Positions 3,366-7,473 of a DNA stretch of 64,000 nt are shown here, piece by piece. Each line of letters opens with the position of its first letter. The first letter of the stretch is position 1. Both the position numbers and the translations under genes were made by a program. The DNA comes from Sandaracinus amylolyticus (GTDB lineage: Bacteria; Myxococcota_A; Polyangia; Polyangiales; Sandaracinaceae): positions 1,736,001-1,800,000 of the forward strand of contig NZ_CP070225.1 of assembly GCF_021631985.1 (NCBI RefSeq), in the 5' to 3' direction. The notes below the pieces were generated by a model. It was not told the DNA's origin, did no database searches, and saw nothing but the letters and a program-made list of their open reading frames with translations.

Positions 3366-4865
3366 TCAGGGCACCGGGGGAGGAGGAGGAGCGTCGAGGA
3401 GACGGACCTGATCGACGAGCAGGCCGTTGCAGAGCTCGACCGGATCTTCGAGCGCCGCGTCCTCGGGCGTGCACGCCGAGTGATCGCTCGGACAGACCAC
3501 GACGTCCCGGCCGCCGTCCGACGCGGGCACGGTGCGGATGCGCCGGCGCAGGACGCCGCGACGCGCGAGAGGCCACACGAGCAGCCCGCTGTCGGGCCCT
3601 TCGGGGAGGAACGCGCCGGTGCCCATCCCCGAGAGCTCGTCGGGCAGCAGCGGCGTCGATGCGACGCGGATGCGGATCGACTCCTCGGAGTCGAGATCGA
3701 CGACGTAGAGCGCGTCGTCGAGGGTCTCCTCGATGCTGCCCGCGCTCACGAACGCCGCGGCACGTCCCGGCAGGGGCACGAGCCCGCGCGAGGGCAAGGT
3801 CGCGAAGAACGACTGCGACGACCACGCGTTCTCGAGCGTCACGACTGGCTCGCGATCGAGGTTCTCGGGGTCGCGCTGGACGAGGATCTCGACGATCCCC
3901 GCGCTCTCGGCGCGCGCCGTGACGTCGCCTCCGACACCGCGGCACGCGACGACGAGCCGCACGACGTTGTCGGGATCGTTCGTCGGATCGAGGCTCGGCG
4001 CGATCTCCGCGCAGCGCAGCAGATCCTGATCGGTCGCGTCGTAGGTGAACGTGCCTACCACGCGACGGCCCGCGGGATCGACGATCGCGAGCGCGGACGG
4101 GGCGACCAGATCGGTGCCCTCGGCGGAGCCCTGCGCCTGGTAGCCGTCGAGGCCGATGTAGAGGCGATCGAAGCGGTGCACCATGCGCTCGGGCTGCGGA
4201 GGCGCGCCCGTGACGAGCCCCGCGAGCGAGATCGAGTCGACGACCGCGCCGCCCTCGTCGTTCTCGGGATCGAGCTCGAACACGAGCACGTCCTGCCCGA
4301 ACGCGGTCTCGCCGTCCACGCCCGCCGCGCGCAGCGCGTAGAGCGTGTCCACGTCGTCTTCGTCCGGGGTGTCGCTCGCGGGCACGACGACCAGATCGAG
4401 CACCTGACCGCCGCTCGCCTCGGGACGCGCGACGAGCATCGGCGCGGTGCGCAGCTCTTGGGGCGGGGACGTGTCGAACGGGAAGCGCACGAGCTCGCGA
4501 CCGTACCGCGTCGTCGCGATCGTCACGCCTCCGCCGGGCAGCTGCGACCACGGCATGCGCCCGTCGAGCCCGATGCCGATCGTCGCGAGCTGATCGTCCC
4601 ACTCGTACGTGGCGTCGAGCCACACCTCGGTGAGCGTCTCCGCGGCGTCGTCGGGGTCGGCCGTCGGGAATTCGATCGCCGTGCCGGTCTGGTCGAGCAG
4701 ATAGATCTCGGTGCGCGTCTGGTCGTACGCGAGGACGCCGAAACGCGGCGTGACGCCCTCGGAAACGGGGGCACGATCGCTCGTCTCGCAGATCGTCGGG
4801 CAGCCGGTCGCGAGCAGCGCGAGCGCGGTCGCCAGGACCGCGACCCACGTGCGGGTCCAATGCAT
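3366..4865 (-). CDS. Secreted lipoprotein, beta-propeller-like, unknown function
   Basis: A 499-residue lipoprotein. The signal peptide MHWTRTWVAVLATALALLATGC ends in the lipobox LATGC, so Cys22 is the predicted acylated residue. The mature part is rich in short beta-strand segments of the form value-label-value (for example LFVIDPAG-like and YVVDLDSEES stretches), suggesting a propeller or WD40-like fold, but I recognise no named family. It has few cysteines and a Pro-rich C-terminus. It is the first gene of a two-gene minus-strand operon with the Ser/Thr kinase 5 bases downstream, which suggests an envelope component linked to that kinase. It is transcribed divergently from the cobalamin riboswitch. 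Confidence 0.8.
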   Translation of the reverse strand: MHWTRTWVAVLATALALLATGCPTICETSDRAPVSEGVTPRFGVLAYDQTRTEIYLLDQTGTAIEFPTADPDDAAETLTEVWLDATYEWDDQLATIGIGLDGRMPWSQLPGGGVTIATTRYGRELVRFPFDTSPPQELRTAPMLVARPEASGGQVLDLVVVPASDTPDEDDVDTLYALRAAGVDGETAFGQDVLVFELDPENDEGGAVVDSISLAGLVTGAPPQPERMVHRFDRLYIGLDGYQAQGSAEGTDLVAPSALAIVDPAGRRVVGTFTYDATDQDLLRCAEIAPSLDPTNDPDNVVRLVVACRGVGGDVTARAESAGIVEILVQRDPENLDREPVVTLENAWSSQSFFATLPSRGLVPLPGRAAAFVSAGSIEETLDDALYVVDLDSEESIRIRVASTPLLPDELSGMGTGAFLPEGPDSGLLVWPLARRGVLRRRIRTVPASDGGRDVVVCPSDHSACTPEDAALEDPVELCNGLLVDQVRLLDAPPPPPVP

Positions 4866-5021: not shown

Positions 5022-5258
5022 AGGATGGAGGTGCGCGCGCCGCGTGGAGGCGACGAGGCTCCCGAGTGGGGGCACGTCGCGGAAGAGGGAAGCCGGTGAG
5101 ATGCCGGCGCGGCCCCCGCCACTGTGACCGGGGACGGCGCGGACGCGGTGTGCGATGCGCACCGAGTCACCACTGCGCGTGCTCGTCGTGTGAGCGGCGG
5201 GGCGCGGCGGGAAGGTGGTCCGCGACGGACGATCCGGGAGCCAGGAGACCTGCCGTGT
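5022..5258 (+). ncRNA. Cobalamin (B12) riboswitch
   Basis: The conserved cobalamin-riboswitch boxes are present on the plus strand. At about 5088-5109 is AAGCCGGTGAGATGCCGG (the P3/P4 core; the family pattern is GAA-CGGTG-AA-CCG). It is followed by GCGGCCCCCGCCACTGTGACCGGGG (B12 box, given here in two parts: GCGGCCCCC and GCCACTGTGACC). The closing box AGCCAGGAGACCTGCCG sits at about 5239-5255 and completes the P1/P7 side. The 5' boundary is approximate. The element sits in the long divergent intergenic region, and its only downstream gene is the lipoprotein starting at 5377. High B12 would be expected to reduce expression of that gene. Confidence 0.9.
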
Positions 5259-5357
5259 GCGCGGCGCGTGCGCTCGATCGGGGAGGATCGGGCTGCTGCT
5301 CGTTCGATCGCGATCGTGATCGGCGCGCGCGTGTGCGAACGGAGACCGCGGGGACGG

Positions 5358-5371
5358 GCTCCGGACGGAGC
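5358..5371 (+). promoter_or_regulatory. Shine-Dalgarno sequestering hairpin of riboswitch expression platform
   Basis: GCTCC-GGAC-GGAGC folds into a 5-bp stem with a 4-base loop that buries the GGAG Shine-Dalgarno located 6 bases before the ATG at 5377. An upstream GGAG at 5341-5344 could pair with the same CTCC and free the ribosome site. This arrangement suggests translational rather than terminator-based control by the riboswitch. Inference from base pairing only; no energy calculation was run. Confidence 0.5.
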
Positions 5372-5376
5372 GCGTG

Positions 5377-6606
5377 ATGGATCGAGCGAGGCTGGGTGGT
5401 GGGTGTTGGTTGTTCGCGGCCCTCGTGATCGCGACGGGATGCGGTGACGACGACGGCGGGACGCCATCGTCGGACGCGGGCACGGACGCGCGTGTCGGAC
5501 AGGTCGACGCGCAGATCGAGGTCGACGCGTACGTCGCGCCGGACGCGTACGTCGAGCCCGATGCGTACGTCGCGCCGCCCTGCGATCCCGGGTGCGGCGA
5601 GGGCGAGGCGTGCCTCCGCGGCGTGTGCGTCGCGACGTGCGGCGGCGACGTCGCGGCGATGGACGCGGCGCTGGCGGAGGGCCTCGTGCCGGTTGCGAAC
5701 GTGTGCCGCGCGGTGAGCGGACCGATCGAGGTGGTGGTGCCGACGGGCGGTGCGATGCCGCGCGTCTACGAGGTCACCGCGGCGACGGTCGACACGACGA
5801 CGACGTTCACGCTCTCGCGCTGGACGCTCGATCCGAGCGTGAGCGCGCCGACGCCCGAGACCGTCGCGACGACGACGCACGCCGGCCACGCGGCGAGCGC
5901 GATCTACGCGGGCGGCTACCTCGCGCTGAGCCCCGACGAAGCGCGCGCGATCTTCGGGTACACGACCAGCGACGAGGGCTTCGTCGGTGGCGTGTTCGAC
6001 GTCGCGGTGGGCGGCGGCAGCGCGAGCGAGACGCGCGCCGACGGGAACTTCGACGGCGTCTGGCTCGACGACGCGCACTACGTGGTCAACGGGCTCGGCA
6101 TGGCGGGCGCCGCGACCTCGGGGCAGGGCCTCTACGTGCGCGACGTGGAGACGCCGAGCGCGTGGCGCGCGCTGGACGAGATGGGCGCGTACAGCGGCGG
6201 CGTGACGCTCGTCGGCGACGTCGTGATCGCGGGCGCGGCGATGGCGTTCGGGAGCAACTGGCCGGACGAGCGCGGCGGTGGTCGCATCTTCGTGCTGCCG
6301 CGCGAGGTGCTCGAGGACGCGGAGACCGTGTCGTCGGCGTGGGACGCTTCGCTCGCGCAGCTCGAAGCGCCCTCGGCGTTCACGCGCGTGTTCGGCACGA
6401 AGCTCGCGGCGACGACGTACATGGACGCGCCGCCCTACGACATCGCCTCGATCGAAGTGCGCGCGCTCGCCGAGACCGGCGAAACCTGGACGTTGAGCGC
6501 GCCCGTCCCGCTGACGACGGGGAGCACGTTCCGGCGTGTGGTCCCGGCGGGCACGGATCGCGCGCTGCTCGTGCACGCGGGCGGCCTTCTGATCGTCGAG
6601 GAGTGA
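5377..6606 (+). CDS. B12-riboswitch-controlled lipoprotein, probable beta-propeller
   Basis: A 409-residue lipoprotein. The signal peptide ends in the lipobox IATGC, followed by an Asp-rich GDDDGG sequence. A low-complexity linker carries three DAYVxP repeats, then a small Cys-rich module (CDPGCGEGEACLRGVCVATC). The remaining roughly 300 residues are beta-rich with repeated GGYLALS / FDGVWLDD / GVTLVGD strand-turn patterns typical of propellers. No enzyme motif is seen. ATG 5377 is preferred over GTG 5374 because it is 6 bases from GGAG. It is the only gene downstream of the cobalamin riboswitch, and a strong hairpin follows the stop. Repression by B12 implies a role in corrinoid capture or uptake, or a B12-sparing function. 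The function is inferred from regulation, not homology. Confidence 0.8.
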   Translation: MDRARLGGGCWLFAALVIATGCGDDDGGTPSSDAGTDARVGQVDAQIEVDAYVAPDAYVEPDAYVAPPCDPGCGEGEACLRGVCVATCGGDVAAMDAALAEGLVPVANVCRAVSGPIEVVVPTGGAMPRVYEVTAATVDTTTTFTLSRWTLDPSVSAPTPETVATTTHAGHAASAIYAGGYLALSPDEARAIFGYTTSDEGFVGGVFDVAVGGGSASETRADGNFDGVWLDDAHYVVNGLGMAGAATSGQGLYVRDVETPSAWRALDEMGAYSGGVTLVGDVVIAGAAMAFGSNWPDERGGGRIFVLPREVLEDAETVSSAWDASLAQLEAPSAFTRVFGTKLAATTYMDAPPYDIASIEVRALAETGETWTLSAPVPLTTGSTFRRVVPAGTDRALLVHAGGLLIVEE

Positions 6607-6618
6607 TCACGGGATCGG

Positions 6619-6646
6619 CCCTCGGCCCCGCGTACGGGGCCGAGGG
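6619..6646 (+). terminator. Intrinsic-terminator-like hairpin
   Basis: A perfect 12-bp stem, CCCTCGGCCCCG / CGGGGCCGAGGG, with a CGTA loop starts 13 bases after the stop of the riboswitch-controlled gene. It is followed by a pyrimidine-rich AGATCTTCTCG rather than a U tract. It makes that gene a monocistronic unit. Confidence 0.7.
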
Positions 6647-6699: not shown

Positions 6700-7473
6700 A
6701 TGCATGATGCAGCGAAGGTCGCGATGACGAAGCGGGCTCGTCCCGATCAGGACGACGACGGCGAGGTCCCGGAGGGCTACGACGTCTCGCGCTTCGAGCG
6801 ACCCTCGGTCGCGGTCGACGTCGCGCTGCTCACCGTCGACGAGGGCGCGCTCCGCACGTTGCTGCTGCGTCGAGATGCTGCGCCGTACCGCGGGCGATGG
6901 GCGCTGCCGGGTGGGTTCGTCGGGATCGACGAGGCGCTCGACGACGCGGCGGCGCGGGTGCTCGAGCAGAAGACCGGGATCCGTCGGGTCTTCCTCGAGC
7001 AGCTCTACACGTTCGGCGCGCCCAAGCGCGATCCGCGCACCCGGGTGATCACCGTCGCGCACTACGCGCTGGTCGATCCCGCGCGCCTCGCCGATGCGCG
7101 CGAGGAGACGCGCGTCGCGACGCTCGAGGTGCCGTGGGAGGGCGAGACCGGAGGGCCCGTCGATGCGATGGGCGTGGATGGTCGCACGCTCCCGCTCGCG
7201 TTCGATCACGCCGACATCCTCGGCATGGCCGTGAAGCGCGTGCGCGGGAAGCTCGACTACACGCCGATCGGGTTCCAGCTGCTGCCCGAGCGCTTCACGC
7301 TCGCGGGGCTGCAGCGCGTGCACGAGACCGTGCTCGGTCGCCCGCTCAACAAGGACTCGTTCCGCCGCCGGATGCTCGCCTCGGGACAGCTCGAGGCCAC
7401 CGGCGATCTGCAGACCGGCGTCGATCACCGGCCTGCCGAGCTCTATCGGTTCGCGCGTCGCTCGGCGGTCTGA
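6700..7473 (+). CDS. NrtR-type transcriptional regulator (degenerate Nudix domain plus winged helix)
   Basis: A 257-residue protein with a Nudix-fold domain (about 30-170) and a C-terminal winged-helix region (about 185-250, GFQLLPERFTLAGLQRVHE, then NKDSFRRRM), the layout of NrtR regulators of NAD metabolism. The Nudix box reads GFVGIDEALDDAAARVLEQ: the first Glu and the Arg remain, but the REUxEE glutamates are replaced (RVLEQK). Hydrolase activity is therefore unlikely, and a sensory role, classically for ADP-ribose, is expected. ATG 6700 heads the frame; the internal ATG at 6724, after GAAGG, is an alternative start. It leads an operon with an SPFH gene 24 bases downstream and an NAD-kinase-like gene, a context that fits NAD control. 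Confidence 0.85.
   Translation: MHDAAKVAMTKRARPDQDDDGEVPEGYDVSRFERPSVAVDVALLTVDEGALRTLLLRRDAAPYRGRWALPGGFVGIDEALDDAAARVLEQKTGIRRVFLEQLYTFGAPKRDPRTRVITVAHYALVDPARLADAREETRVATLEVPWEGETGGPVDAMGVDGRTLPLAFDHADILGMAVKRVRGKLDYTPIGFQLLPERFTLAGLQRVHETVLGRPLNKDSFRRRMLASGQLEATGDLQTGVDHRPAELYRFARRSAV

Follow-up and report, generated by a model that had tools for sequence, protein, structure and literature searches.

The window analysed here is a 64,000-nucleotide stretch of the Sandaracinus amylolyticus genome in which a cobalamin riboswitch precedes a lone lipoprotein gene, hereafter gene A. The locus raises the question of what a single lipoprotein would contribute under B12 control, and whether it is a myxobacterial counterpart of BtuG, the propeller lipoprotein of Bacteroides.

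Riboswitch and leader of gene A

The leader, the gene and its 3′ end comprise the following features.

5086-5251 (+): cobalamin riboswitch aptamer RF00174, model positions 45-169 (cmscan)
5114-5119 (+): L5-like CCCCGC, candidate kissing-loop partner, complementary to 5348-5353 (sequence only)
5341-5362 (+): P13-like hairpin with GCGGGG in its loop
5358-5371 (+): hairpin GCUCC-GGAC-GGAGC with the Shine-Dalgarno GGAG (5367-5370); its strand 5358-5362 is also part of the extended P13
5377-6606 (+): gene A, lipoprotein of 409 aa, lipidated Cys22 at 5440-5442 (ORF, family alignment)
6619-6646 (+): 12-bp hairpin 3′ of gene A, without a T-tract

The covariance model accepted the RNA upstream of A as the cobalamin riboswitch that had been predicted, scoring 57.7 bits where the gathering threshold is 31.5 (cmscan, 5086-5251, + strand, E 1e-11). 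It is one of six RF00174 matches in the 10.96-Mb genome. Downstream of the aptamer, GCGGGG at 5348-5353 pairs by complementarity with the aptamer sequence CCCCGC at 5114-5119, as expected of an L13-L5 kissing loop, and G(C/A)GGGG lies 17-30 nt 5′ of the start codon in all seven Sandaracinaceae leaders with a reasonably sure start. The Shine-Dalgarno GGAG is located six nt before the ATG at 5377. The hairpin said to be able to hide it is real, formed by GCUCC and GGAGC at 5358-5371, and its sequence is identical in the sister species. Judged by its sequence, the leader is consistent with a kissing-loop translational switch. When cobalamin is plentiful, the riboswitch would bind it, the L5-L13 kissing loop would form beside the Shine-Dalgarno and translation of A would drop; when cobalamin is scarce, the unbound riboswitch would allow A to be translated and exported to the outer membrane, probably to the surface.

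Within positions 5341-5371, the extended P13 and the Shine-Dalgarno hairpin are mutually exclusive and close in energy. Since the two share a strand, an ON switch is conceivable, in which the cobalamin-bound RNA would form the extended P13, capture 5358-5362 and free the Shine-Dalgarno. The extended P13 has -10.2 kcal/mol and the short P13 plus the hairpin -11.7, and the sister species can form either pairing. However, the short P13 and the hairpin can coexist, which gives an ordinary OFF switch, and the folded leader of another locus (L038) pairs its Shine-Dalgarno around P13. The cobalamin riboswitches known so far are mostly repressing. We regard the ON switch as quite improbable and retain the OFF direction.

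The next gene on the strand of A encodes a NUDIX/NrtR-type protein (start 6700-6724), so that the unit ends with A and the riboswitch controls one gene only, in agreement with the original prediction. Gene calls at neighbouring loci came from a simple codon-usage script, and the start codons of neighbours are approximate. The 12-bp hairpin proposed to terminate the unit exists at 6619-6646, but it lacks a T-tract and a terminator scan returned no intrinsic terminator after A; a terminator at this position was dropped from the interpretation.

Sequence and predicted fold of the A protein

Two further features lie within the coding region.

5581-5640 (+): Cys-rich module, residues 69-88 (family alignment)
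5686-6600 (+): predicted beta-propeller domain, about residues 104-408, read as six blades (AlphaFold model, fold comparison)

The N-terminus of A carries the lipobox IATGC with Cys22, followed by an acidic linker rich in Asp and Ala. Its description as a lipoprotein with a Cys-rich module therefore holds, the module spanning residues 69-88, although distant homologues in the family alignment lack this module. Searches of Pfam and NCBIfam with A gave no family match, PDB sequence searches with the profiles of A, of family B and of the fusion proteins described below gave chance matches only, and no sequence relation of A to a known corrinoid binder was detectable.

The AlphaFold model of A (pLDDT 80.0, pTM 0.79; first 64 residues unsure) is a beta-propeller, which agrees with the propeller-like pattern suggested from the sequence; on our reading of the DSSP string of the model, the propeller is probably six-bladed. 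The best folds are tied near Z 17 and include AA12, an SMP-30-like lactonase, a paraoxonase and the designed Pizza6, the ties extending across many unrelated propellers. BtuG is absent among the 50 best structural matches listed for A. A propeller fold alone shows no function for A.

The lactonase, paraoxonase and AA12 matches could point to a propeller enzyme or lipoprotein for low-B12 conditions that acts outside uptake, for instance as a lactonase-like hydrolase or by replacing a B12-dependent step. The same type of switch also targets the B12-sparing genes metE and class I RNR, as this reading would have it. Nevertheless, matches tied over so many unrelated propellers do not favour an enzyme, A is a lipoprotein paired with B, and in two families A lies in an operon with a TonB receptor; we consider an enzymatic role unlikely.

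Propellers usually bind ligands on the face formed by the D-A and B-C loops. The conservation of these loops in A is 0.49 versus 0.39 for the other face (loop-permutation p 0.02), in a shallow alignment of 8-10 rows in which loci of one family are not independent. The conserved face of the modelled propeller bears a modest resemblance to a ligand site. We put the chance that A itself binds corrinoids, a putative activity, at about even.

Conservation of the locus and its partners in the B12 regulon

Homologues of A were found at eight loci in seven Sandaracinaceae genomes, and RF00174 lies directly upstream on the same strand at all eight. Profile searches with family A covered 289 genomes from the class and 377 from the phylum, and identified further members in three genomes, each from another family: G065 (E 4.9e-27; riboswitch 101.9 bits), G073 (E 9.5e-21; 73.1 bits) and G388 (E 9.2e-39; 71.1 bits). 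The G388 protein (L120 2712-5306, - strand) is of double length and contains two tandem A units in a single frame, encoded downstream of the riboswitch. An A-like gene in G512 (L121 4608-5315) is a weak match (E 3e-13) truncated by the contig end, and no riboswitch was found on its contig. Other weak matches of the class search, mostly limited to query positions 1-90 in the Asp/Ala-rich linker and the Cys module, were ignored. Among contigs of named genomes, a search with the single A protein gave no match, and the family-A profile detected three loci (Sandaracinaceae MED-G138, Sandaracinus KT_bin-1087 and Myxococcales HKST-UBA02). Family A is rare, compared with family B, which occurs in 134 of the 289 genomes of the class.

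Leaving aside a locus in G081 that ends at a contig end, the riboswitch is directly upstream of A in 11 of 12 testable loci, from four families. This conservation argues against the view that the riboswitch acts for the entire B12 locus and that A stands behind it by chance, a view that would fit the variable same-strand neighbours of A in Sandaracinaceae and that we consider highly improbable.

The other five riboswitches of the same genome precede the class I RNR gene, metE, C-cobT-cobS-cobC, an uptake operon from the TonB receptor gene to cobU, and a lone B gene. Judged by these targets, the type of switch that controls A also governs genes for the uptake, salvage and sparing of B12. The uptake operon is as follows.

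L030 100-6844 (C1:5928099-5934843) (-): B12 uptake operon with riboswitch, TonB receptor, BtuG-like B, btuF, btuC, btuD and cobU

CbiC, a marker of corrin-ring synthesis, was detected in none of the eight A-bearing genomes by a search whose control was positive in 7 of 14 known genomes; as a single marker, CbiC does not cover the whole pathway. The A-bearing genomes encode numerous B12-binding domains.

The original prediction stated that no TonB gene is adjacent to A. This is true of the window, and in Sandaracinaceae A has no adjoining receptor gene and no fixed same-strand neighbour, but TonB receptor genes lie directly 3′ of A in two other families. The gene order in G065 and G073 is riboswitch, A, TonB receptor and a protein with a LIC_13355 domain, with gaps of 36-118 bp. 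The receptor carries Plug and barrel domains, and its best curated matches include the B12-receptor model TIGR01779, at a score far below the cut-off of that model. The third gene encodes a protein of 604 or 616 aa whose C-terminus weakly matches the LIC_13355 model.

L076 9677-11491 and L077 3198-5048: protein combining a propeller-like N-terminus with a LIC_13355-like C-terminus, in an operon with A and the TonB receptor

These fused copies score 29 and 38 bits against NF033170 (LIC_13355), below the curated cut-off of 120, whereas family C reaches 160.1 bits (L029) and 139.4 bits (L064). That the N-terminus of the fusion is a propeller rests on our reading of its repeats; no link to B by sequence was found, with two rows only in the comparison. 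Family C, the LIC_13355 family lipoprotein (NF033170), has a common regulon with A and is unrelated to it.

A divergent lipoprotein gene, not mentioned in the original prediction, lies on the other side of the riboswitch.

3366-4865 (-): paralogue of gene B, divergent lipoprotein of 499 aa, predicted BtuG-like seven-bladed propeller family (fold from the L030 copy)

A B gene is also divergent from A in G001, G005 and G007. The B loci considered are the window gene (3366-4865), L030, L031, L058, L064 and L066. Among 20 further B loci, a riboswitch was located within 1.5 kb in 12 cases. At L110 3069-3561, two divergent cobalamin riboswitches stand back to back, one of which leads a B gene. In the L030 and L066 operons, B is linked to both a TonB receptor and a riboswitch. 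We read seven blades in the model of the L030 copy (pLDDT 91.3). The first eleven entries in its list of structural matches are BtuG structures without exception (Z 28.4-30.1, rmsd 2.9-3.6, 304-319 residues); the next match, an archaeal YVTN propeller at Z 27.5, is tied with the lowest BtuG row. No Pfam or NCBIfam family was found for B. Like A, B is predicted to be a propeller lipoprotein, belongs to the one B12 regulon and is often divergent from A; unlike A, it is read as seven-bladed, and a profile comparison found no relation between the two families.

Comparison with Bacteroides and proposed role of A

By fold and context, B probably works like BtuG, with a predicted corrinoid role, and according to the models it is family B, not A, that most closely resembles BtuG. 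The domain PF16819, which we take to be the propeller domain of BtuG, matched neither the family-A members nor 28 family-B members at E up to 1. PF16819 is named as a propeller domain beside DUF4465 loci (PMC13398666), and Pfam DUF4465 gave no match with ten family-C members at E up to 1.

BtuG (PMC6143338, PMC10404256) shares with A its nature as a lipoprotein, the beta-propeller, control by a cobalamin riboswitch and, at the family level, a link to a TonB-dependent receptor. However, BtuG is seven-bladed, as family B is read, whereas A is read as six-bladed and stands alone in its own genome, and A has no detectable sequence relation to BtuG. The proposal that A is a BtuG analogue survives as far as a propeller lipoprotein with a likely role in corrinoid acquisition is concerned; a specific likeness to BtuG was not supported, given the six-bladed reading and the lack of a match to B. 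An orthologous relationship to BtuG was dropped on the six-bladed reading, the lack of a PF16819 match and the lack of a profile match to the BtuG-like B. On our analysis, the myxobacterial system would work like the Bacteroides one, and A itself, by the tests made, is not a BtuG.

In Bacteroides, BtuB carries BtuG as a lid (PMC10404256), and further B12 lipoproteins have been described, namely BtuH, BtuJ, BtuK and BtuL (PMC8941943, PMC12751083). Like A, these are extra lipoproteins; their genes accompany those of BtuB and BtuG in loci under riboswitch control. BtuJ is a DUF4465 jelly-roll protein, whereas A is modelled as a propeller and has no Pfam match to the BtuH, BtuJ, BtuK or BtuL families. 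The BtuH domain fused to BtuG1 (PMC10404256) is paralleled by the LIC_13355 fusion of G065 and G073.

In this context, we consider it likely that A is a surface lipoprotein with an accessory part in corrinoid scavenging, its synthesis being predicted under B12 shortage. A would aid a BtuB-like TonB receptor in corrinoid acquisition, beside the BtuG-like B and the LIC_13355-type C; the OFF direction of the switch, the surface location of A and its contact with the receptor are what we infer from the arrangement. That A represents a new class of corrinoid-binding surface lipoprotein, six-bladed, without sequence relation to BtuG and placed beside the BtuG-like B and the LIC_13355 lipoprotein in a Myxococcota B12-scavenging complex comparable to that of Bacteroides, is a possibility that falls somewhat short of even.

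Alternatively, A may bind no corrinoid and owe its co-regulation to a structural or assembly role at the outer-membrane receptor, where it could, for instance, serve B and C as a lid or dock. Its position within the receptor operon in G065 and G073 would suit such a part, the predicted BtuG fold makes B a stronger candidate for capture, and BtuL of Bacteroides is a co-regulated lipoprotein for which cobalamin binding was not observed (PMC12751083). Nevertheless, A stands alone behind its own riboswitch in Sandaracinaceae and its conserved face resembles a ligand site, and we hold the partner role to be possible, on balance doubtful. A scavenging lipoprotein remains our preferred reading of A.

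Homologues of BtuG have been reported, by BLAST, as restricted to Bacteroidetes (PMC6143338), whereas in one class of Myxococcota a family that has the predicted BtuG fold and lies in operons led by cobalamin riboswitches is widely distributed. Our literature search, of incomplete coverage, found no papers on BtuG-like proteins in Myxococcota. The regulon of B includes a second predicted propeller lipoprotein, A, unrelated to B, together with the LIC_13355 lipoprotein. A represents a predicted lipoprotein family not described before and is probably part of a B12-scavenging system similar to that of gut Bacteroides. If this is true, lipoprotein-assisted B12 capture would extend far beyond gut Bacteroides, and three protein families that have no Pfam entry would gain a likely role. 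LIC_13355 of Leptospira has been described as a laminin and plasminogen binder, with B12 unmentioned (PMC11891782), and the same reading would provide a testable B12 hypothesis for this lipoprotein.

A separate family of small lipoproteins led by the riboswitch was observed at L057 2543-3523, L063 3472-3933 and L067 3060-3521. Its members carry a motif like IAGxYTDxFGGxHxIT, and 3′ of each lies a gene for a protein of ~210 aa with WPKGPFPERYRF.
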